Source of the DNA: Flavobacteriales bacterium | Lineage (GTDB): Bacteria > Bacteroidota > Bacteroidia > Flavobacteriales_G > JALEGO01 | Length of the DNA stretch: 38,794 nucleotides | Reading direction: 5' to 3' | NCBI GenBank assembly: GCA_020631045.1 | Contig: JAHDHZ010000012.1 | Span: forward strand, 1 to 38,794 | In this document: positions 19,157 to 38,765 of the stretch, one piece after another | How the letters are laid out: every line of letters starts with the position of its first letter | Position numbering within the stretch: position 1 is the first letter of the stretch | Notes under the pieces: generated by a model | What the model was told of the DNA's origin: nothing | Seen by the model: only the letters and a program-made list of their open reading frames with translations | Database searches by the model: none | Program-made: the position numbers and the translations under genes

Positions 19157-21316
19157 CTACTGAACCACTAACCTTTTTTGAAAGCCCCCTTTAAATTGAT
19201 CATTTAGCTCAATAATATAAATACCAGCTTTTAATGCAGATGTATTTAAATGAACATTTTTTGCATTTACTTCAAAACGCTGAATGACACTACCTGAAAC
19301 ATTTTTAACAAATCCCTGGACATTATTTTTTCGATTTTGATTTGTTAAGAACAATTCAATCGATGGTCTGCCTTGTTGAATAACATTCGGAAACAATTCA
19401 AACTTGCCTTTATGACTATTGTAATCAAACACATGAATCACTTCAATTGAAGAATACTCAAATCTCCCATCAAAATCAACTTGTTTCAATCTGTAATAAA
19501 TCAAATCTGATTGAAATGAATGATCAATAGCCTCATAATATTGCGCGGCGTTAGAGTTTCCGTTACCTTGAATGATGTCAATAGTTTCAAAGTCTACTCC
19601 ATCATATGATCTTTGTACTTCAAAATAATCATTATTAATTTCAGAAGCTGTCGCCCAAGAAACCACAATACCTTGATTATCATTTAATTGCAAATTAAAA
19701 CTAACCAATTCAACAGGCAAAGCACTGGCTCCTGCTCCAACACCAAAAGGAGAAAATCCATCGTCATAATTTGAAATTTCAGCATACCTCATCACTCCAT
19801 TGGTAAAAGTAGCCGAATATTCTTCCCAACCTGAATCGTAGTGACCAATAAAAATACCATTTGGTATGTTCGCATTGAAGTTTGCCCCTTCATTTCCAGG
19901 CTCCCAACCAAGTTTTATATCAAATCTTTGAGTAGCATCTGAATTACTTAAATCCCAATAATGGCTTACATTTCTTGACGCATCAGAAACCATAGGGTGA
20001 GCTCCATCATAAGCAACAGCATTAAACTCATTCAACACTGCTGTTGTTGGATTCACAAAAACAGGTGTAAATGCAGTTGATGTACCAATTGGAATCTCAT
20101 AAACTACGTTACTAGCCCCATCTTCTATAATCATGCCTGGAGAGACATATGACGATACACTACCAGAATTCAACAAAGTACTTGAGGTACCTGAAGCATA
20201 ATCTAGATAAATATGTGTTCCTGGGTCTCCTGAATTGCCATCAAACAAAATACCATCAATTAAATTCAAGCTACTTGTTGCAATCTCCTCACCATCTTGT
20301 AAAGTAACACCAGTTGCACTCCTATTTTCAATAACTAAATTAGGAATATCTATAGTAGCCACATTTGGCAATTGTATTACATCTGAAACTTCTACTCCTG
20401 TTGTTTGAGCAACCAGCCCACTATACTTTAAAACAGTAGAGGCATTTTTATAAACTATATATCCGCTTGATGGTGTAGAGCCAGTCGGTGACTTTACAAT
20501 TTGAGCAGCTGAGGCCATTTCTAAAGTATCAGTAATTACTAAATAATCAACATCTGTAAAAGTTTTATCACCACTTCCATTAATCTTCAACTTAGAAAAC
20601 TCATTATTAGCAATGGTAATTGTTTGAGCTCCACCATCTAACTCAAACAAACCTGAATCACATATAACCTGAGCAGATGCCACAACAGGAGACGCATGAC
20701 AACAAGCATACACTGAATCTGCAGCCATTAATTTACTTGATGGATTTCCTTCAAAATCTATTTTTGAGACCACTGAAGCATCAGATACACTAAACCCAAT
20801 CGCTCCATTTGCATTAAGGGTACCTCCTCCCAAATATATTGCTGCATTAAAATTTAAGCTAACATCTACACCTGAAACAAGTTTTATTCCGCCATCAACA
20901 GTCATGCTTCCTCCATTCAAATCAATATAGTTCTCATAAGTTCCTGCAAAATAAACACAAGTCGATGCAATTGATATTGACACATCTCTTCTGACTTGTA
21001 ATGAAGAGGTTGCACCAGCAAATAGTAAGATTCCTTCATCTGGAGCTGCACCCGCACCACAATACGTTGAACTACCAACATCAAGTGTATTTGCTTCAGC
21101 AGCAAAAGAGGCCGGTATTGTCACTATTGTATTGGGAGATATATCTACATCATCAGAAATTCCTGGGTAGTCTATTCCAGGAATACAACCTGTGGTACAT
21201 AGCCCCCCCCAAGTTGTCCCGACATTCCAATTACCGTTAGATCTACTACTAAAAGTAGCTGCAATCAAGCTAGATGCACTAAATAAAAAGATGATATGTA
21301 ACAGAAGTCTTTTCAC
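19157..21316 (-). CDS. Secreted beta-rich surface protein with type A T9SS sorting domain
   Basis: A 719-residue exported protein. It starts with GTG (21314-21316), giving a signal peptide to about residue 19 (MKRLLLHIIFLFSASSLIA). The mature N-terminus (FSSRSNGNWNVGTTWGG) is the type found before parallel beta-helix adhesin-like regions, and the next 500 residues are Ser/Thr/Asn/Gly-rich with repeated short beta strands. A fibronectin-III-like segment follows (about 533-640; LPVELVSFNLQLNDNQ and WATASEINNDYFEVQRS are stock phrases of T9SS cargo). The last 75 residues end in GIYIIELND and KRLVVQ, a type A sorting domain. It is monocistronic, and an 8-G tract lies early in the coding strand. 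Role: probable surface adhesin or matrix protein. Confidence 0.87.
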   Translation of the reverse strand: MKRLLLHIIFLFSASSLIAATFSSRSNGNWNVGTTWGGLCTTGCIPGIDYPGISDDVDISPNTIVTIPASFAAEANTLDVGSSTYCGAGAAPDEGILLFAGATSSLQVRRDVSISIASTCVYFAGTYENYIDLNGGSMTVDGGIKLVSGVDVSLNFNAAIYLGGGTLNANGAIGFSVSDASVVSKIDFEGNPSSKLMAADSVYACCHASPVVASAQVICDSGLFELDGGAQTITIANNEFSKLKINGSGDKTFTDVDYLVITDTLEMASAAQIVKSPTGSTPSSGYIVYKNASTVLKYSGLVAQTTGVEVSDVIQLPNVATIDIPNLVIENRSATGVTLQDGEEIATSSLNLIDGILFDGNSGDPGTHIYLDYASGTSSTLLNSGSVSSYVSPGMIIEDGASNVVYEIPIGTSTAFTPVFVNPTTAVLNEFNAVAYDGAHPMVSDASRNVSHYWDLSNSDATQRFDIKLGWEPGNEGANFNANIPNGIFIGHYDSGWEEYSATFTNGVMRYAEISNYDDGFSPFGVGAGASALPVELVSFNLQLNDNQGIVVSWATASEINNDYFEVQRSYDGVDFETIDIIQGNGNSNAAQYYEAIDHSFQSDLIYYRLKQVDFDGRFEYSSIEVIHVFDYNSHKGKFELFPNVIQQGRPSIELFLTNQNRKNNVQGFVKNVSGSVIQRFEVNAKNVHLNTSALKAGIYIIELNDQFKGGFQKRLVVQ

Positions 21317-28066: not shown

Positions 28067-28459
28067 TTATAAATTTTCTTTGATGCGCTCGGCAATGGCT
28101 TGCATCTCTAGTTTTGAAAACTCTAGTTTTGGCTTTGCAAAATTCATATCTGCCACCGCATTGATCGGAATCAAGTGAATATGCGCGTGCGGCACTTCAA
28201 GGCCTACGACTGAAACCCCAATTTTTTTACAATCAAAACTTTGTTGCATGCCTTTGGCAACTTTTTTAGCAAAAAGATGCAGCCTAGAAAGTAGTTCATC
28301 ATCTAAATCAAAGATATTGTCGATTTCTTTTTTTGGAATCACCAAAACATGGCCCTTTGCAATCGGAAAGACATCTAAAAAAGCCAAGCAGTCTTCTGAT
28401 TCTGCTATTTTGTAGCAGGGAATTTCGCCGTTGATGATTTTTGTGAAGATTGAGGGCAT
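28067..28459 (-). CDS. HIT family protein (histidine triad nucleotide hydrolase)
   Basis: A 130-residue cytosolic protein of the Hint/HIT superfamily, which hydrolyses AMP-linked substrates such as AMP-lysine or Ap4A. The N-terminus IFTKIINGEIPCYKIAE and the signature HAHIHLIP at 91-98, giving the H-x-H-x-H triad (His91, His93, His95), are diagnostic; GHVLVIPKKE is the conserved strand before the helix. It is first in a two-gene unit with asparaginase. greA lies upstream on the same strand, with a long palindrome in the 129-base gap. Confidence 0.95.
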   Translation of the reverse strand: MPSIFTKIINGEIPCYKIAESEDCLAFLDVFPIAKGHVLVIPKKEIDNIFDLDDELLSRLHLFAKKVAKGMQQSFDCKKIGVSVVGLEVPHAHIHLIPINAVADMNFAKPKLEFSKLEMQAIAERIKENL

Positions 28460-28588: not shown

Positions 28589-29062
28589 TTATCTAGAGAT
28601 GTCAAGCACCTCAAATTTCATTTGGCCAGCTGGAGTGGTGACTTCTGCTATTTCACCGACTTTTTTGCCTAAAAGCCCCTTGCTTATTGGCGATTCAATT
28701 GAGATTTTTTTCTCAGCCAAATTCGCTTCATTTTCTGGTACCAATGTGTATTGCATTTCGGCGCCGTTGGCTGTGTTTTTGATCTTTACTTTTGAGAGAA
28801 TCAGCACCTTAGAAGTGTCGAGTTGAGATTCATCAATGATGCGTGCGTTGGCAATTTTTTCGTTGAGCTTTGAGATTTTCATCTCAAGCATGCCTTGTGC
28901 TTCTTTTGCAGCGTCATATTCTGCGTTTTCTGACAAATCACCTTTATCTCTTGCCGTGGCAATCTGTTGAGAGATTTTAGGGCGTTCTACAGACTCTAAA
29001 TGCTTTACCTCGTCTCTAAGCTTTTGTAAGCCTTCTTCTGTTACATGAACAACTTGACTCAT
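28589..29062 (-). CDS. greA: Transcription elongation factor GreA
   Basis: A 157-residue protein that enters the secondary channel of RNA polymerase and stimulates cleavage of the backtracked transcript. The N-terminal coiled coil (about 1-75) carries at its tip GDLSENAEYDAAKEAQ, including the acidic residues required for cleavage. The C-terminal FKBP-like domain (SPISKGLLGKKVGEIAEV) docks on the polymerase. Length and motifs are normal. It is separated by 72 bases from the PorV-like gene upstream on the same strand. Confidence 0.96.
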   Translation of the reverse strand: MSQVVHVTEEGLQKLRDEVKHLESVERPKISQQIATARDKGDLSENAEYDAAKEAQGMLEMKISKLNEKIANARIIDESQLDTSKVLILSKVKIKNTANGAEMQYTLVPENEANLAEKKISIESPISKGLLGKKVGEIAEVTTPAGQMKFEVLDISR

Positions 29063-29135: not shown

Positions 29136-30215
29136 TTATAGATCTAACCTCAATGTAGCAGAGTGTGTTCCGCCAAATCTTGCAGTAGGTCTAAATGCAT
29201 AATCTACTCCGAGTACTTTACCCTCTGACCCCATAGGAATGTTAAATCCGACTCCTGCTGCAGGTCCTAGATAAGCATTGGTTAAATCAGCAGCATCTTC
29301 ATCTAAAGAAGAACCGTTTTCATGAGCATATCCCAATCTTAATCTAAAGATTTGCTTGTAAGCATATTCAAGTCCGGCAATGATTTGATCTTTGCCAAAC
29401 GAGTTAGACAAAAAGTTTACGTTTAACGTTAGAATGTTTGCTGGCTTCATTTTTTTATCAGAAGTAGAATCTTTGGCCATAGCGCCTCCTAAATGAAAAT
29501 CATAAGCAGCTCCAATGTTTAATAGGGCCGGCAATTCAAAACCTTGTGATCTTTGGCTTAAAGTATATTCAATATCATTGAAGATTACCTTCTCTGAAAA
29601 TCCATCACCAGAAAACTTCATCTTAGGACCAACATTTTTTAAAGAGATGCCAAACCGTGTTCTATCAAAATCTCCAGTCACATAACGAATACCAATATCA
29701 AAAGACATTCCTGAAGCTCCAGAGTTGGCAATTTGTTCAGAAATTGTACGCACAGTAATGCCTCCGTAAATACTGTTTGAAAAAGTCTTTGCATATGACA
29801 AACCAATGTTTAAAAAAGTTGGACTAAACGTACCAGCGCCTCCATCAGGTAAATTTGTTGTGGTGATGTCTATGTCTCCAAAGCTCATCGCAGAAACAGT
29901 TAATCCGAAAACTGAAGACTCTCCTACTTGCTGGCCAAAACCCAGAGAAGAGAAACTAATACCAGATCCTGTTAACCAGTTTTTATATCCAAACATGACT
30001 TCTGTTCCTTGAGTGAAAGCTAGACCTGCTACGTTGGTAGCCGCAGCCTCAATACCTAACACACTTGCTGTGTTAGAGCCTGCAAGACCAGAAGAAGCTG
30101 CCCATGGATTGATTTTAAGTTCTGAAGCACCTGCTTCACCGACGCGGTCTTCATTTCCGGCAAGGGCTGAAAACCCAAAGCCTAACATTGCAATACTTAA
30201 TAATATTCTATACAT
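29136..30215 (-). CDS. PorV/PorQ family outer membrane beta-barrel protein
   Basis: A 359-residue FadL-like barrel. A signal peptide of about 19 residues (MYRILLSIAMLGFGFSALA) precedes ELKINPWAASSGLAGSNTAS, and the pattern of alternating strands runs to the C-terminal aromatic/Leu end (HSATLRLDL). The stretch GIEAAATNVAGLAF is typical of PorV/PorQ (the 'DUF3308' family). PorV itself carries T9SS substrates from the SprA translocon to the PorU attachment complex. This copy is the last gene of an operon with a large T9SS cargo and a TonB-dependent receptor, so it may be a dedicated paralogue rather than the general PorV; I cannot tell which without the rest of the genome. Confidence 0.87.
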   Translation of the reverse strand: MYRILLSIAMLGFGFSALAGNEDRVGEAGASELKINPWAASSGLAGSNTASVLGIEAAATNVAGLAFTQGTEVMFGYKNWLTGSGISFSSLGFGQQVGESSVFGLTVSAMSFGDIDITTTNLPDGGAGTFSPTFLNIGLSYAKTFSNSIYGGITVRTISEQIANSGASGMSFDIGIRYVTGDFDRTRFGISLKNVGPKMKFSGDGFSEKVIFNDIEYTLSQRSQGFELPALLNIGAAYDFHLGGAMAKDSTSDKKMKPANILTLNVNFLSNSFGKDQIIAGLEYAYKQIFRLRLGYAHENGSSLDEDAADLTNAYLGPAAGVGFNIPMGSEGKVLGVDYAFRPTARFGGTHSATLRLDL

Positions 30216-30241
30216 AGTTTTTTTTCTTGTTGATTAAACAA

Positions 30242-33200
30242 TTAGAATGAGTCAAGATCTATTGGTCTGGTCATTCCGAACCATTTTAATACACGTTCAC
30301 CAATTCCTGGAGCTTCTACATGAATGATGTAAATACCTGATGCGATGGTAATGTTTGCATCGTTCTTTAGATCCCACTGAAGTGAAGTTGTTGAAGCATC
30401 ATCTTTGGTTAAGGTTCTTACCAACACACCATTTGTGGTATAAATTCTTACCGTACATCTATCAGGCAAGTTGGTAATCTTAATGCGGTTATCTAATCGA
30501 TCTGTTTCATACTGAGAGTATGCATAGTAAGGATTAGGCACTACATTGATAATGTCTAAACCATTTACTGCAGTCTGATTATCAGCCAATGCAACAGCAT
30601 ACTTATCTGTATTAAAAGTATACAATGGGCGACCATAGTTTTGGGTTAAAGCAACATTGTCTTCAGCATCAAGAGCACTCACAGTACCTGAACTTGAAAA
30701 AGAAGAAGTAGCAGTACCATCAAAATATTCACCATGATTGTAAACTGTACCGTTATAATCAATTGGACCTCTTAAGACATAGTACTTACCATCTTCAGGC
30801 AATTGCTCACCTACATCAATTAGGTTGTCAGTAGTCACATAATTTCTATAAGGCTTACGCACTCTTAAACGCACTCTTACAGAAGAAGGCACCAAACCAT
30901 CTGCCATAGATTTAAAAGCAAACCCAGGAGTTAATAGAGGTAGTGATGTCCAAGCTGCTGCTTGGTAAACGCTCTTAAAGTCTCTTGAATTGTACGCAGA
31001 AGTTAAAGAAGATGAACCTTCAGCTGAAACAAGCTTATCATAAATAAACTGACCTGCATCATATGATGGCATTTGTCTTGATTTTTGAATCCCAAAATTA
31101 TTTGCTGCAATTCCTGAAAGCTCGACACTCTTACGATCTTCAAACACATTGTTTCTAAAGACAATAATGTAATGCTTACCTCCTAAACGCACGTCATCAA
31201 AAGGCCCTTCAGTGATGTTCGAAGTAGGATTCCATTGCATGTCACCACCATTTTCTGATTGCAACCAAGAATCTTCACCGAAAGCAATATTTAAACGCTC
31301 ACCTGTTTCTTGATCAATGGCATACCCCGGAAACCAACTCATACCATAAGCACCAATGTAATTGGCATCGTCTTCATTGTTAGAACCAGAAGTTGATTGC
31401 CACCAATTGGCAACAGATTGATCAACAGAATAAGAATTTCCGTTTTTATCTAAAGAAGGAGACCTTCTTAAAAACCCTTTGTTAGCACCACCAATTGTAA
31501 CACCGTTATCACGCTGCATTTCAATTACAGCAGCACGCGTCCATTTACTCTTATCATCTGTTAATACTACATCAACATTGTTTAGATATTCTAAAGAATT
31601 ATTGATAAGGTGCGCTACTTGCGTGTAGTTATAAGTATTCAGGTTCGAAGGCACAGGACCTTCAGGCTCAATAGCACCTAATTTAAATGGCGCCCATGTA
31701 CCTCCTAAAATCTGCTCATAAATTTGAGCTGGATCTATCCAAGCCTTTACAGTGTTACCCGTAGCATGATCAGATAAATTCTGTTCATTAAAATTCGGTG
31801 TTGTAGGATCATCATCAGTAACATCAGAAAGACCTGCTCTAATCCAATTTGTACCATCAGAAGCTCCATCATTATCTTCAATAGCAGTAATCCACTGCTC
31901 ATCTGAATATTCAATGCTTGAAGTTAATACAGAGTTGATATAATCTATTGCCTCATCATCAGTCTGACCTGTTTGAGTGACTGGAGCCTGCTTAATATAA
32001 ACAGACAAACCAACTTCAGGCAAAATCTGCTCGTTACCAATTTGAATAGCCAAATCTGAAGTATACACAATCGTTTGAGAATCGCCCACAAAAGTAAGCT
32101 CCCAAGAAGCATCTGTTAGATCATAATTCTGAGTTGCAGAATCTTCTAATATCTTAAAAGTAAATGCTCCTTTAGGAACGATTAATGGGTCTACCACTTT
32201 AATTGAAACAGGGGTATAACCTTCTTGGTAAGTCACATCAGCAACCTTGTAAGGCCAACCGCTCATAATTCGATCTTCTGTCTCTTGAGTCATACGAATC
32301 TCGCGATTGCCATTGCCTATACCTTCAAGTCTGGTCAACTCAACCTCGTCACCATATTCTGAATTTTGAACAGTTCCTTCTGCTTCAACTTCTGGCTTGT
32401 GTGGCACAGCAGTAAATACTTTCACAGCAGTACCTGTAGCACTTTTACCACTCTCAATGTAGGGTAATTTTTGACCATTTAACAAAAGTGGGTCTGAAGG
32501 ATTAAACACATTAAACTCAGAATAGTTTACAGCATAAGCTACTGCCATATAATAAACTTCTTTGTGATTTATAAGTTTATTGTCTCCTTCGGCAAAAGCA
32601 TCGGTCAATAAATTGAAAGAATGAGAAATACCTAAATTTTCTCCTTCTGCTTTAAGCTTAGGAATTGTTTGTTGTAAATTCTCATCAAACTCATAATTGA
32701 TCAATGTAGTATGTTGATCTTCAATATCACACTGAAAGACTAATCGTGCCAAATCAGCATCATCTAAATCATTTACTGATACCGACTTGTTTTTTACTTG
32801 ATACACCTTATAACCCTGAAAATAATACCTTTCATAATCTTCTTTTTGTTGTGCGTTTAGGTTCTGATATACATTTACATTGGTAACAGCTCCAGATAAA
32901 ATAGGAATTGAATCAATTACAGCAGCTGACAAAAATGTTGAGTCAAGTGTTACTATATAATTGGTGTCATAATAAAAAGTTGATGGAGCTTGAACTAAAA
33001 TTGTATCGATCATCATCACAGAATCTAATGAGTAAGACCATAATGAATCAATAATCGGATTGTAACCTAAAGTATCAACAGTTCCTGCAGGAAGGGTTGA
33101 TAGTAAAACCGAATCAGGAGCATCTAAAGAAGGGTCTTTTTTAGCATAAGCTTCTTGATAGTTGTTAGAAGTCTGCGGATTAGACATAAATACTACCAAC

Positions 33201-34939
33201 TCTTGATCTAACTCTTGAAAGGTAAGCTCAGGAGCATTTGGTCCTTCTAAGATTTGAAAACAGTTGTTAAAGGCTGCTTGTGTTTTATTGTCAGCAAAGA
33301 TTAACTCATCAATTGAAGCTTGAGGACCTCCTGTAGAAGCTTGAGCCCAAACTACCCCAACAGTAATGTAATTTTTCGCTCCTGGCGCTAAGGTAAATGG
33401 ACCTGCTGATTGAGCAAAACGTCGATCGCCAGGTGTATTACCTGCTGTAACTTCTGTCCAGTTTTCTTCGGCAAAACCAGTTCCCCAATTTTGTTGATCT
33501 GATGGCCCAGGAAACATGAATGATGTTGGTCTACATGAAAATGGAGCAGAACATCCATTGATATGACCATTACCACCATGTACCATTTGTGTACCGTCTT
33601 TCCAAATACCTCTTAAATAATTATAGTAATCTGTTGCTGTGATTGGATCAAAGTTCGGAGAACCACTACCAATGTTGTGGTATAAAAATCTACGCATACC
33701 AAAACGCTCATTATCTACAATACTATCAGAATAGCCTACACCATTGCCTTCTACTGCCTGATTAAACCCTGTGCCCCACTCATTGTCTTCGCCGTCAGCA
33801 TCTTGAAAAGGTCCTTGAAAGAAATCAACTCCGATTGCAGGAGGTTGATCTAAGTAACCTAAAGCCCCATTTGCGTTGTCATCATAAGCATCACCATTGT
33901 AGCAATACCCTAAACCACGAGAAACATCACAACCAACATAATCATCATTTGCACCTCCTAAATCAGCATCTACCCAAAATCCAAAATAAGTTTCAGTTAA
34001 GGTAAAAGTAGATCTATTGATCAATTGATAATTGTAAAAGGTCATATTGTTTACCTCATCGTTGGTCGCGAAAGCAAAAGCCTGAGCACGAATCTCCATA
34101 CCAATAGCCTGAGCTGAACCTGACTCAGTATGAATGTTACCATTATCATTGAAAACCCACCATAAATTTTGATCACCGTAAACTTGATTTAAGTCTTCGG
34201 TATTGCACTCTCCGTCTCCTGCAAGATCATAAGCAGGATAATCGCCATCTTGCCACTCATATAATCCATTGCCATTTAAATCAACAAAAGGTGCAAGGTT
34301 AAATTCATACTGATTAGCATCAGCAATCCCTAAAACACCAGGATGTGCCGGCCACTCTTGAATGCTCAAAGGCACTGAATATCCAGGAAAATCTTCTTGA
34401 GCTGTTGATGTACCGTTAGCTGCATCAAATGCTTGAGCAGCATTCCAAGCAACAAACTGCTCTACTTCTTGCTTGGTTGTTTTAAAGTGTTTGTCAAATA
34501 CTTGACATACCTCAGCAGTAGTTTCAGCATTGTCAACTCGCAAAGGGCCTGTCCAGAAATCATTCCCTTGAGATCTAAAACGCTGTGCTGCTACCTTTAA
34601 TTGGTTTGAAACATCAACCCCACCTAGCCACAAAGAACCTGCAAAAATTGAAGTTTTTCCTGAACCTTTAGGTACTTCATATTTTGGTGTTTGCTGTAAA
34701 TCCCACCACATGTCACCACCTGTTTGAATCAATGCTCTAATGTTGTTGATGTCTAGATCTTCAGCTGATGAAGGGGGCAGACAACTAGCCGCTATTTTAC
34801 CAGATGCCCCAGCAGTAGTAGATGCAGATGAATTGTTGTTTAACTCTTCTAAGTTGATGTAAGCAAAAGCTTGAAAAGACACCATTAAAAAGGCAACTAA
34901 AAAGCTTAATGCGTAGTGTAATGTTTTATTCATGTTCAT
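30242..34939 (-). CDS. Very large secreted protein with conserved T9SS type A-like C-terminal domain
   Basis: A 1565-residue exported protein. A signal peptide (about 1-26, ending SFQAFA) is followed by a conserved N-terminal region with GDMWWDLQQTPKYEVPKGSG, IFAGSLWLGGVD, Asp/Asn-rich probable calcium loops (DLNGNGLYEWQDGDYPAYD) and GDQNLWWVFNDNGNIHTES. The middle part is long and Asp/Thr-rich without a domain that I can name. The last 101 residues begin NVVPNPYYAYSQYE and contain ITNLPDRCTVRIYT, WDLKN and GIYIIHVEAPG, ending KWFGMTRPIDLDSF: a type A-like sorting domain with an extra conserved tail. Two in-frame ATGs (34939 and 34933) are possible. It lies 19 bases after the receptor gene and 26 bases before the PorV-like gene. 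Function unknown; surface location is well supported. Confidence 0.85.
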   Translation of the reverse strand: MNMNKTLHYALSFLVAFLMVSFQAFAYINLEELNNNSSASTTAGASGKIAASCLPPSSAEDLDINNIRALIQTGGDMWWDLQQTPKYEVPKGSGKTSIFAGSLWLGGVDVSNQLKVAAQRFRSQGNDFWTGPLRVDNAETTAEVCQVFDKHFKTTKQEVEQFVAWNAAQAFDAANGTSTAQEDFPGYSVPLSIQEWPAHPGVLGIADANQYEFNLAPFVDLNGNGLYEWQDGDYPAYDLAGDGECNTEDLNQVYGDQNLWWVFNDNGNIHTESGSAQAIGMEIRAQAFAFATNDEVNNMTFYNYQLINRSTFTLTETYFGFWVDADLGGANDDYVGCDVSRGLGYCYNGDAYDDNANGALGYLDQPPAIGVDFFQGPFQDADGEDNEWGTGFNQAVEGNGVGYSDSIVDNERFGMRRFLYHNIGSGSPNFDPITATDYYNYLRGIWKDGTQMVHGGNGHINGCSAPFSCRPTSFMFPGPSDQQNWGTGFAEENWTEVTAGNTPGDRRFAQSAGPFTLAPGAKNYITVGVVWAQASTGGPQASIDELIFADNKTQAAFNNCFQILEGPNAPELTFQELDQELVVFMSNPQTSNNYQEAYAKKDPSLDAPDSVLLSTLPAGTVDTLGYNPIIDSLWSYSLDSVMMIDTILVQAPSTFYYDTNYIVTLDSTFLSAAVIDSIPILSGAVTNVNVYQNLNAQQKEDYERYYFQGYKVYQVKNKSVSVNDLDDADLARLVFQCDIEDQHTTLINYEFDENLQQTIPKLKAEGENLGISHSFNLLTDAFAEGDNKLINHKEVYYMAVAYAVNYSEFNVFNPSDPLLLNGQKLPYIESGKSATGTAVKVFTAVPHKPEVEAEGTVQNSEYGDEVELTRLEGIGNGNREIRMTQETEDRIMSGWPYKVADVTYQEGYTPVSIKVVDPLIVPKGAFTFKILEDSATQNYDLTDASWELTFVGDSQTIVYTSDLAIQIGNEQILPEVGLSVYIKQAPVTQTGQTDDEAIDYINSVLTSSIEYSDEQWITAIEDNDGASDGTNWIRAGLSDVTDDDPTTPNFNEQNLSDHATGNTVKAWIDPAQIYEQILGGTWAPFKLGAIEPEGPVPSNLNTYNYTQVAHLINNSLEYLNNVDVVLTDDKSKWTRAAVIEMQRDNGVTIGGANKGFLRRSPSLDKNGNSYSVDQSVANWWQSTSGSNNEDDANYIGAYGMSWFPGYAIDQETGERLNIAFGEDSWLQSENGGDMQWNPTSNITEGPFDDVRLGGKHYIIVFRNNVFEDRKSVELSGIAANNFGIQKSRQMPSYDAGQFIYDKLVSAEGSSSLTSAYNSRDFKSVYQAAAWTSLPLLTPGFAFKSMADGLVPSSVRVRLRVRKPYRNYVTTDNLIDVGEQLPEDGKYYVLRGPIDYNGTVYNHGEYFDGTATSSFSSSGTVSALDAEDNVALTQNYGRPLYTFNTDKYAVALADNQTAVNGLDIINVVPNPYYAYSQYETDRLDNRIKITNLPDRCTVRIYTTNGVLVRTLTKDDASTTSLQWDLKNDANITIASGIYIIHVEAPGIGERVLKWFGMTRPIDLDSF

Positions 34940-34958
34940 AGTCTTCTAATCTCTTTTA

Positions 34959-37900
34959 TTAAAAATCAATTCTTAACCCTACCTTAAATCTTCTAGGCAA
35001 AGTATAGTTTGCGCCTGTATTGGCACGAATAGCATATAAATCTCTAAAACTCTGCTCGTCATTTTGAGAGGTAATGAAGTTCTGAAATTTCTCTGAAGTT
35101 AAGAAACCATCATCTTCAGGATTACCAGTAAATCTGTATACATTGGCAATATTTAGAGTATTGAAAATGTTTTCAATTTGACAGTAAACCGTTAGAGGTA
35201 ATCCTTTTTTGTCTTCGCCAGCACCTAACATGAAGCGCTTGTCAACCCCAAGATTCACTGAAAAATTCCAAGGCAAACGAGCCCCATTCAATTGACCATC
35301 TAACAAAGCAGGATCAGCCGAAAACAAACCAGTCTGCGTTACATTTTTCTGTCTTGAATAAGGCGTTCCTGAACCTAGATTGATAACCGAATTTACTCCG
35401 AAGTTTTCAAATATTTTTCTCGCAAAACCATCAGGTCCGTTGTACTCTTTACCACCACCATAACGGTAATCAATATTGGCGATAATACCGTGTCTTTGAT
35501 CGTAAGAAAGCGGGATCAAATTTCTTAAGTTCGGCTTACCTGTTCTAGCAAGACCAAGCCCTGAAGTTTCATCAGAACCAGTACCTTCAGCAAATTGCAT
35601 GGTATATGAAATACGCCCTCTAATGTTACCCATTCTTCTTAAATCATAAGAAACTGTCAATCCTTTTACTGTAGCGAAATCACGGTTAGCATAAGTAATA
35701 TAACCATTCGGGAAAGCCTGCTGCAAGTTTACAATCTGTACCAAATCTCTTGATTCTCTATAAAAGGTCTCAATTGACAACGAAGAGAAATTGTTTAGCT
35801 TTTGCTTAAAACCTACTGCATAGTCAATGGTCTGCTCAAGCCCTAAGTCTGGGTTGGTTACCACATCATTACCCACAGAGTTGATGAAGAAATATTCAAT
35901 TGGATCTAACCTTGAGCCTGCTGTAGGTCTTTTGGTTAACACATCATAGTGCGCAAAGAAAAGCGCTTCATCAGAAATCGGAAACGAGAATGAAATACGA
36001 GGCATAATTGCCGTTCTAGGCTTGTAATCTCTAAATGAACCCTCAGCAGTCATCTCTTGAGTATTGGTAATGGTCTTGTCGACCAAAAGAGGCGCAATAC
36101 CTTGAGAACCCTCTAAGATTGAAGGGTCTTGAATCTCAATACCTTCTGCATTAAACCAAACATCGCCATCACGGTATCCAACTACTTCATTTGGATTGGT
36201 CACATTGTCTACATAGACCACATAATCATCACCAATATTGCCAGGTACAGCTACATTATTTAAGCCATGTACTGTTAAGTCTTCACCTGCTTTTACTGTC
36301 GGAAAGAACACATAAGGATCTTTCAAGACTGACTGGTTGGCATCGTAACGATCGACACGCACACCTACATTAAACACCAAGTCATCAAAAGAAAATTTAT
36401 CTTGAATAAATCCTGCTACATAAATGGGCTGAAAAGGGGCAATTGGTCTTGTGAAATTACCAAACTCGTCTTGAGCTGTGAAAAACTCATTTAACCAGTT
36501 GGCCGAGTAACCTCTTAACTTGTTACCTGCATGATCATAACCGTAGTAACTTACCAAATTGTTACCGTTGTTTAACAATTCATCAGCACTGAACATTTCT
36601 AAAGAGTATTGCTCAGGACCATAAGCATCAAAGTCAATGTAATCGGTTCCGTCAGGATTTAAACCTAAGTCTTTTCTTAGGTTGTAATCAAAGAAACTTT
36701 GTGGATCAGCTCCGTTGAAATCTCCGCCCCACTGATCGTCTGGAGCAGAATTTAAACGGTCGTAATTGATGATCGGGAACGTTCCTGTCTGCACAATCTG
36801 TGGATTTGAAAAATCTAAGTTTGAAATGTGACGATTGGTTAGCTGACGGCCAACAGTCCACAAGCCTCTTGGGTTTGAGAAAAACTCACGATCAACTCTT
36901 TGCTCATATTCAAAGCCTAAAGTAATGGCATGGTTGCCAATGTCTGCAGAACCGATTGCATTCAAACGGTATTGCTCACGATCAAGCACTGAATATCTGT
37001 TTGAAATAAAAGCAGGAGATCGCCACATTCCGTAAATGTCTCTGGGCGCATCACCATTTCTTAAACCACCTGCCAAAGCAATGTTGTTTAAGTTTCTTAA
37101 GTTCTCACCAGCCAAATCATAATCAACAATAGGATTGCCGTTTAAGTCAAATCCACCAAAACCATACAAATCATAGAATCCTTGTGTAATTGCTGCTCCA
37201 TCAGCATTGAAATCATAATTTGGCTCAAAAGTTACCAATGTATCAACATAAGTGGTTTGTACCAAGCCAAAAATTCCGGTAGCCGAATCTTGCCCACCGT
37301 CGTAATCTCTAGATTGATAAGTGTTGAATTTTCCGTAATAACCGTAAGCAAATAAATTGTCTTTCAAGTTTTCATCTTGCCACTTGGTTGTTGTGATTTG
37401 ATAATCTGCCTGAATTGAGTAATAGGCGTTTTTAATTCTTGATGCAGAAGCCGCTTCTTGGTCAGCAGTTGCATTGCCAAAACGTTGTGTCAAACGCACA
37501 TACCCTCTGTAAGTTGAGTTTGAAATTTGTGGATTATGGTGTGCATTAAAAAGCGTGTAAGAGTAAGAAGCCAAATCATTGCCATTAGAAATTCTAAATC
37601 GATCATCTGTTCTGGTATTGATGTCTGCCGCTCCACCAAAAGTAAGGGTCGTATTTTGTGTAAGGTTTAAATCAAGCTTAGCATTCAAGTTTAATCCCTG
37701 ACGCTCAACATTTAAACGCGTTTTTTTGTTTTCTAAATCATCTAAGTTTAAAAATTCTTGATTTAAAAAGGTTCCGTTACCACCTGCATTGAACCTTAAT
37801 GGATTTTGTTGTAATTCTTGAGCAACTTCATCTTTCACTCTATACATACCAATTGCAGAAGGCTGTGGATCTACAATTGAAGTAACATTACCCGCAACAA

Positions 37901-38765
37901 AGAATCCTAAAATCGGATCTTTTTTATTGCCAGCGGTATCTTTTCGCCAAACTAAAGGCCCTGTAGCATTAAACTCTAATAAGTTATACCCCATAGCATC
38001 TAGACCAATCACCTCACCTTCACCAGATTTAAATCCTGAGGTTAAATAATCAACTCCACCAGAATACTCTCTTGCTGCACCTCTAGTTGTAATACTTACA
38101 ATTGCCCCTGTAACATCACCATATTGTGCGGGTACTCCACCAGTAATCACAGAAACCTGCTCTAATGCTGCTTTAGGCAATGATGAACCCGCTCTTACCT
38201 TTACCCCATCAATGTATACAAAGTTGGCATCGTCACGCGCACCCCTTGAGTTTAAATCACCTGAACCATCATCTTTAGCATATACACCACCAACCGTCTT
38301 TGCTACATCTGTAGCGCCACGACCTGGCAAGTTTTGAATGTCATCACGCGTAATGGTCTCACCTGCTACAGTGTTATCTTTGTCAATCAAAGGCACCGTA
38401 TAACTAATGATCTCAACGGCTTCTAAGTTTACTGCCTGGGTTGTAATTTTAAAATCTTGAAAGGTTGTTTTATCTGACTTTACAACTACTCCTTGAATCA
38501 ATTGAGGCTGGTAACCTACAAAAGAAGCCTCAACATCATATAAACCTGGCTGCAAAGGCTTTATATTAAAAACTCCATCAAAATCTGTTTGAGCTCCTGT
38601 TACAATGTTTCCTTTTGATTTGACTGCAATGTTTGCAAACGGAATAGGTTCTCCTGATTCTTTGTCTAATACTTTTCCTTTTAAAGCACCTTGCCCTACT
38701 TGCGCCTCAACCACAGCACTTGTGAAAGCAAAAACGAGAAATAACAGTATATACTTTTTAATCAT
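34959..38765 (-). CDS. Large TonB-dependent receptor with carboxypeptidase-regulatory-like N-terminal domain
   Basis: A 1268-residue outer-membrane protein. A signal peptide ends near residue 21 (SAVVEAQ). An Ig-like regulatory domain follows (about 27-110; GKVLDKESGEPIPFANIAV, LYDVEASFVGYQPQL), then the plug (about 125-235; NLPGRGATDVAKTVGGVYA, SRGARDDANFVYIDGVKV, EQVSVITGGVPAQYGDVTG) and a barrel of about 1000 residues with long Asp/Asn/Tyr-rich loops, ending in RRFKVGLRIDF, a proper terminal strand with C-terminal Phe. It is the first visible gene of a minus-strand operon with the 1565-residue secreted protein and the PorV-like barrel; no SusD is present. Only 29 bases upstream of the start are in the window and I see no clear promoter there. 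Substrate unknown. Confidence 0.9.
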   Translation of the reverse strand: MIKKYILLFLVFAFTSAVVEAQVGQGALKGKVLDKESGEPIPFANIAVKSKGNIVTGAQTDFDGVFNIKPLQPGLYDVEASFVGYQPQLIQGVVVKSDKTTFQDFKITTQAVNLEAVEIISYTVPLIDKDNTVAGETITRDDIQNLPGRGATDVAKTVGGVYAKDDGSGDLNSRGARDDANFVYIDGVKVRAGSSLPKAALEQVSVITGGVPAQYGDVTGAIVSITTRGAAREYSGGVDYLTSGFKSGEGEVIGLDAMGYNLLEFNATGPLVWRKDTAGNKKDPILGFFVAGNVTSIVDPQPSAIGMYRVKDEVAQELQQNPLRFNAGGNGTFLNQEFLNLDDLENKKTRLNVERQGLNLNAKLDLNLTQNTTLTFGGAADINTRTDDRFRISNGNDLASYSYTLFNAHHNPQISNSTYRGYVRLTQRFGNATADQEAASASRIKNAYYSIQADYQITTTKWQDENLKDNLFAYGYYGKFNTYQSRDYDGGQDSATGIFGLVQTTYVDTLVTFEPNYDFNADGAAITQGFYDLYGFGGFDLNGNPIVDYDLAGENLRNLNNIALAGGLRNGDAPRDIYGMWRSPAFISNRYSVLDREQYRLNAIGSADIGNHAITLGFEYEQRVDREFFSNPRGLWTVGRQLTNRHISNLDFSNPQIVQTGTFPIINYDRLNSAPDDQWGGDFNGADPQSFFDYNLRKDLGLNPDGTDYIDFDAYGPEQYSLEMFSADELLNNGNNLVSYYGYDHAGNKLRGYSANWLNEFFTAQDEFGNFTRPIAPFQPIYVAGFIQDKFSFDDLVFNVGVRVDRYDANQSVLKDPYVFFPTVKAGEDLTVHGLNNVAVPGNIGDDYVVYVDNVTNPNEVVGYRDGDVWFNAEGIEIQDPSILEGSQGIAPLLVDKTITNTQEMTAEGSFRDYKPRTAIMPRISFSFPISDEALFFAHYDVLTKRPTAGSRLDPIEYFFINSVGNDVVTNPDLGLEQTIDYAVGFKQKLNNFSSLSIETFYRESRDLVQIVNLQQAFPNGYITYANRDFATVKGLTVSYDLRRMGNIRGRISYTMQFAEGTGSDETSGLGLARTGKPNLRNLIPLSYDQRHGIIANIDYRYGGGKEYNGPDGFARKIFENFGVNSVINLGSGTPYSRQKNVTQTGLFSADPALLDGQLNGARLPWNFSVNLGVDKRFMLGAGEDKKGLPLTVYCQIENIFNTLNIANVYRFTGNPEDDGFLTSEKFQNFITSQNDEQSFRDLYAIRANTGANYTLPRRFKVGLRIDF

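Follow-up and report, generated by a model that had tools for sequence, protein, structure and literature searches.

T9SS cargo proteins are currently divided into type A cargos, which share a single general PorV, and type B cargos, which depend on dedicated SprF-type carriers (PMC12618676, PMC12635249). The locus described here raises the question of whether a T9SS cargo may also be served by a carrier of its own from the PorV branch and act together with a co-encoded TonB-dependent receptor. The window, i.e., the whole stretch of DNA analyzed (38,794 nucleotides), represents an entire contig (C20) of the genome of a Flavobacteriales bacterium (G000), and its positions 29136-38765 are filled on the minus strand by three genes, for a receptor, a cargo, and a barrel, referred to here as the trio. 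An earlier note, made from the sequence alone, had placed these genes 19 and 26 bases apart, with which the ORF coordinates agree (Table 1). No terminator-like site was found in either intergenic gap of the trio, and promoter and terminator scans yielded chance-level matches only. The greA-like and HIT-like genes serve as anchors and lie outside the proposed mechanism. Elsewhere in the window, another T9SS type A cargo is encoded on the minus strand at 19157-21316, for which PF18962 gives a weak match at 19169-19345 (27.2 bits against a cut-off of 27).

Table 1. Features of the trio and its downstream anchor genes in the window.
Feature	Positions	Strand	Basis
TonB-dependent receptor, 1268 aa, first gene of the trio	34959..38765	-	ORF; signal peptide by eye
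Receptor N-terminal extension, CarboxypepD_reg, residues 28-106	38448..38684	-	PF13620, 60.1 bits, cut-off 32.3
Receptor Plug domain, residues 130-217	38115..38378	-	PF07715, 35.9 bits, cut-off 23.9
T9SS cargo, 1565 aa	30242..34939	-	ORF; signal peptide by eye
Cargo conserved N-terminal module, about residues 50-611, beta-rich	33107..34792	-	Alignments A2 and A4; AlphaFold2
Cargo disordered linker, about residues 620-685	32885..33082	-	pLDDT <50 at model residues 61-126
Cargo folded beta-rich middle and C-terminal part, about residues 690-1450	30590..32872	-	AlphaFold2
Cargo C-terminal sorting domain (CTD), about residues 1463-1565, predicted type-A-like fold	30245..30553	-	Foldseek
Cargo terminal tail KWFGMTRPIDLDSF, additional to an ordinary type A CTD	30245..30286	-	Conserved in clade
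Outer-membrane barrel of the PorV/PorQ family, 359 aa, putative dedicated carrier	29136..30215	-	NF033709
greA-like gene, directly downstream, syntenic anchor	28589..29062	-	Name from sequence alone
HIT-like protein gene, syntenic anchor	28067..28459	-	Name from sequence alone

The last gene of the trio encodes a PorV/PorQ-family barrel, as had been proposed: the family model NF033709 is matched with 146.9 bits against a cut-off of 90, and the barrel profile matches the PorV structure at 1.4e-14. The protein is distinct from the named members of this family, as it scores below the cut-offs of the equivalog models for PorV (NF033710, 67.5 against 250) and PorQ (NF033711, 74.9 against 220) and gives no match to that for PorV2 (NF052325) at E up to 1. 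An identity with PorV itself was considered and rejected; a true PorV is encoded elsewhere in the genome, on contig C78. Since PorQ (C50) and a PorV2-PorU2 pair (C27) are likewise encoded separately, the barrel represents an additional, fourth, unnamed member, and the count of PorV/PorQ paralogues suggested in the earlier note comes to PorV, PorQ, PorV2, and the trio barrel. On C27 (L081:3131-9310), PorV2 adjoins a PorU2 of 1703 residues whose CTD match is weak, which constitutes a second barrel-cargo pair in this genome.

The cargo is present as a single copy in the genome, and no lipobox cysteine directly follows its signal peptide. Its C-terminus remains below the cut-offs of the curated type A CTD models (TIGR04183, 17.8 against 23; FlgD_ig, 21.9 against 27), is absent from the 77 PF18962 matches of the genome, and gives no match to the type B model TIGR04131 at E up to 1. 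In Foldseek searches, the best PDB match of the C-terminal model is PorZ (5m11; E 4.6e-5, prob 1.00), and the CTD model matches the RemZ CTD in the SprA-PorV complex (8gl8_D; prob 1.00) with a TM(target) of 0.66 over 74 columns of a 75-residue chain. The predicted CTD fold is of the type A kind, matching solved T9SS sorting domains; the assignment of a sorting domain in the earlier note is thereby upheld by the predicted fold, although not by the curated type A models. The distinctive tail noted at its end, KWFGMTRPIDLDSF, is real and conserved, being kept as roughly KWFGxxRPxDLxxF in most Flavobacteriales homologues. AlphaFold2 models are beta-rich for both residues 23-640, comprising the N-terminal module (pLDDT 85.1, pTM 0.83), and residues 560-1565 (mean pLDDT 82.9, pTM 0.82). 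The very long middle region that had been emphasized is present, although it is mostly folded in the model and disorder is limited to about residues 620-685. Foldseek comparison of the N-terminal module with the PDB gave no confident known fold (TM 0.2-0.3), and an enzyme reading was rejected because the matches to GH94/GH116-type enzymes and dextran dextrinase reach only TM 0.2-0.3 with an rmsd of about 10, which was read as a beta-sandwich resemblance. No SusD-like fold was found in the beta-rich cargo model. Searching solved structures with the cargo sequence yielded chance-level matches or none, and a viral structure library gave no useful match.

The receptor passes the Plug cut-off and hence belongs to the TonB-dependent receptors; a conserved stretch precedes the plug in alignment A3, and no close paralogue is encoded in the same genome. 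Membership in SusC was rejected, with 40.2 bits against the TIGR04056 cut-off of 368. The combination of a CarboxypepD_reg extension with a Plug domain corresponds to the Oar subclass as defined previously (PMC6434023), although a similar extension is also known in SusC-type importers, that of a solved SusC homologue having been matched. The lack of SusD, which had been remarked upon for this locus, holds genome-wide, as neither PF07980 nor PF14322 gives a match; the genome contains 14 Plug matches, and no SusC over the cut-off.

Conservation of the trio was examined in a homologue scan across genomes, which gave 463 stretches related to the cargo, and 78 loci were fetched. Of the Flavobacteriales loci, 46 offer room on either side; the complete trio is present in 41 of these and both neighbors are missing in five, and a locus with exactly one neighbor was not encountered (0/46). 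Gene order, strand, and small gaps are preserved in these trios. Clustering of all neighboring ORFs revealed that, of 44 trio loci with room, 42 have the greA-like gene as the next gene downstream, in the same orientation and after a gap of 73-132 bases, and 43 have the HIT-like gene downstream at a distance within 1.5 kb; several more neighbors recur at larger distances. The trio is mostly a single copy at this greA site in Flavobacteriales, and its fixed position suggests vertical inheritance. In one locus (L029:5-15806), a receptor-cargo pair is followed by a receptor-cargo-barrel trio, such that two cargos may share one barrel gene, and another (L045:16684-21279) has an additional cargo copy a short distance downstream of a complete trio. 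A cultured relative, Crocinitomix catalasitica ATCC 23190 (L032), also contains the trio.

In a sample of 396 Bacteroidota genomes, the cargo profile matches 167 at 1e-15 and the barrel profile 186 at 1e-25. Full trios were found at 34 of 40 loci from 33 families that were picked by similarity to the trio barrel, and hence do not measure PorV-family genes at large; no counterexample was encountered, the remaining six being located at contig ends (L126, L127, L144, and L145) or containing split reading frames (L139 and L152). Thus, the survey of co-occurrence and adjacency called for in the earlier note finds the three gene families linked by a wide margin (41/46 and 34/40 full trios) rather than usually unlinked, and a local chance adjacency was rejected in view of conservation both within Flavobacteriales and across 33 families.

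Certain genomes contain many copies of the trio, which permits comparison of the three partners within one genome and thereby removes the species tree as a cause of any correlation. One genome (G244) has 31 PorV-family matches and no SusD, and full trios were found at 14 of its 19 PorV-family sites that were read; another (G268) has 14 trios at 20 sites, so that each of the two provides at least 14 trios. In G244, pairwise distances correlate between PorV and CTD (r 0.69), PorV and receptor (r 0.84), and CTD and receptor (r 0.67), each with a Mantel p of 0.0001, and the co-divergence also holds within two subgroups. In G268, r ranges from 0.67 to 0.84 (p 0.0002), with 0.84 for receptor and carrier. 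In a third genome (G030), with six full trios, barrel and receptor correlate (r 0.76, p 0.011), but PorV and CTD do not (r 0.19, p 0.32). Such co-divergence can arise solely from linked genes being duplicated together. A rearranged variant (L157) comprises, in this order, a CTD protein, two unassigned genes, a receptor, and a barrel. At L186, L203, L205, and L209, a receptor and a PorV-family barrel share a strand, and the profile used detected no CTD immediately ahead of the barrel; these are possibly trios with a CTD that escapes this profile.

Cargo copies lying apart from a trio, i.e., orphan cargos, bear on the relationship between cargo and barrel. Ten genomes with such extra unlinked copies encode exactly one trio-type barrel each. 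Of the nine barrels that were fetched, seven are located in full trios, one (L179) accompanies a cargo and a receptor of split frame, and one (L178), at the end of a contig, has the C-terminus of a cargo beside it. For each of the eight orphans compared, CTD similarity places the trio cargo of the same genome first or second among 53, and in L070, L074, and L078 its N-terminal module ranks only 27th to 35th. In these three, the C-terminal half is near that of the own trio cargo and the N-terminal module is far more divergent, as if heads had been exchanged on a constant, putatively carrier-binding part. The CTD pattern of the orphans, as read from sequence, fits a shared carrier that would constrain the C-terminal end while the head changes, although gene conversion could also produce it. 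A shared carrier has likewise been reported for orphan type B cargos (PMC12618676), and in type B/SprF systems the cargo is thought to stay on its carrier (PMC12618676, PMC12635249).

Among 22 genomes, hand-picked across two broad groups, higher PorV-family counts go with lower SusD counts (Spearman -0.68, p 0.0005), the value taking no account of phylogeny. The gene module and its co-inheritance are established by the results above, which can be accommodated by a mechanism in which the three genes represent one ancient outer-membrane module; that the trio is a functional unit is almost certain. The cargo would pass the inner membrane via Sec and the outer membrane via the T9SS translocon, at which its own PorV-branch carrier, encoded in the adjacent gene, would take it over instead of the general PorV. 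The barrel is probably this cognate carrier, a role for which linkage, co-divergence, the fold of the CTD, and analogues in the literature (PMC12618676, PMC12635249, PMC10202324) speak. The cargo would remain on the carrier through its uncleaved CTD and tail, like PorZ on PorQ and SprB on SprF, and such retention, judged by analogy, is somewhat favored. Held at the surface, the cargo would place its large N-terminal module at the extracellular face of the co-encoded receptor, where it would capture a ligand or hand it over, thereby performing the job of SusD via a T9SS-delivered protein. Whether the cargo is the extracellular partner of the receptor is evenly balanced, and a carrier-held T9SS cargo serving a receptor, taken as a whole, has slightly less than an even chance of being correct, although it is the best explanation. 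The proposal in the earlier note that the three proteins form one assembly has thus gained linkage, co-divergence, and precedents for a surface carrier (SprF, PorQ-PorZ, and PorV2-PorU2), whereas the three-way complex and the lid function of the cargo are what we infer, the latter from the presence of a receptor in the unit and from the SusD pattern. The single-copy trio at a fixed greA site differs from the variable, duplicated Sus loci, which could mean that its ligand is constant or housekeeping in nature.

A different reading of the same genes is that the dedicated carrier and the cargo form a static surface complex, such as an adhesin, an enzyme, or a structural protein, and that linkage of the receptor reflects co-regulation or a common pathway, with no docking of the cargo on it. 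Retention of CTD proteins on a barrel of the PorV or SprF type is known (PMC12618676, PMC10202324), Foldseek searches of the N-terminal module gave neither a ligand nor an enzyme assignment for the cargo, and orphan cargos without an adjacent receptor exist, so that a cargo does not always need a receptor beside it. Genomes with orphans, however, still carry a trio; furthermore, cargo and carrier without the receptor occur in none of the 46 Flavobacteriales loci with room, and co-divergence is strongest between receptor and carrier (r 0.84 in both G244 and G268). A static complex is considered rather unlikely, while still deserving consideration.

Two further readings appear improbable. The receptor may aid export or assembly of the cargo, which the PorV-like protein then anchors, by analogy with Oar of Myxococcus, a protein with CarboxypepD_reg and Plug domains that exports a protein and is needed for secretion of the protease PopC (PMC6434023). 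The Oar-type architecture of the receptor agrees with this reading, but a similar extension occurs in SusC-type importers, the cargo has a T9SS-type CTD fold as predicted, and the PorV and the 77 PF18962 matches of the genome indicate that an export route already exists. It is comparably improbable that the cargo is an ordinary type A cargo on the general PorV, next to a PorV-like protein of unrelated function. The type-A-like CTD fold and the true PorV in the genome would suit such a cargo, whereas its CTD scores under the type A cut-offs and carries an extra conserved tail, the barrel gene nearly always follows the cargo gene, and CTD and barrel co-diverge among paralogues.

A carrier-held cargo serving the receptor has relatives among known systems. 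In SprB-SprF and Fjoh_3952-Fjoh_3951 (type B), a cargo gene is similarly followed by the gene for its own PorV-like (FadL-type) barrel (PMC12618676, PMC12635249). The dedicated barrel gene lies directly downstream of the cargo gene in the trio as well, but this barrel belongs to the PorV family and not to SprF, the CTD resembles type A, and the pair has a TonB-dependent receptor gene ahead of it. A CTD protein paired with a PorV-family barrel is also found in PorZ-PorQ, in PorU-PorV of the attachment complex, and in PorU2-PorV2 (NF052324/NF052325); PorZ keeps its CTD, and the idea of its retention on PorQ has been published (PMC10202324). The trio cargo is none of these proteins, its barrel corresponds to no named equivalog, and a receptor is present. 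SusCD resembles the trio in co-encoding a TonB-dependent receptor with a surface partner, with numerous paralogues per genome in certain lineages, whereas the trio has no SusD, its receptor scores far under the SusC cut-off, and the partner is beta-rich and apparently T9SS-exported rather than a SusD-type lipoprotein. The Oar protein of Myxococcus xanthus shares the architecture of the receptor but acts with PopC, whereas the trio receptor, as read from genes alone, comes with a T9SS cargo and a PorV-family barrel. No earlier description of the trio was found in the open-access literature that was searched, the Caldithrix and Melioribacter genome papers included. What is added here to the known dedicated carriers, PorZ-PorQ retention, and SusCD is the trio combination, its spread, and its multi-copy expansion.

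If the proposed mechanism is true, type-A-like cargos with their own PorV-branch carrier and a receptor would constitute a third, phylum-wide T9SS arrangement, which would explain the occurrence of up to 31 PorV-family genes in some genomes and would render the role of PorV paralogues directly testable. We tentatively suggest, as a doubtful but conceivable extension, that such trios constitute one more general design for TonB-dependent uptake at the surface of Bacteroidota, in which a carrier-held T9SS lid replaces the SusD lipoprotein. In this view, lineages without SusD would have expanded the design to a dozen copies or more per genome, and the greA-locus copy of Flavobacteriales would be its conserved single-copy form. 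If the cargo serves the receptor, SusD-less lineages would have their own multi-copy uptake machinery; being kept across much of Bacteroidota and multiplied in such lineages, the trio may be an overlooked outer-membrane uptake machine.
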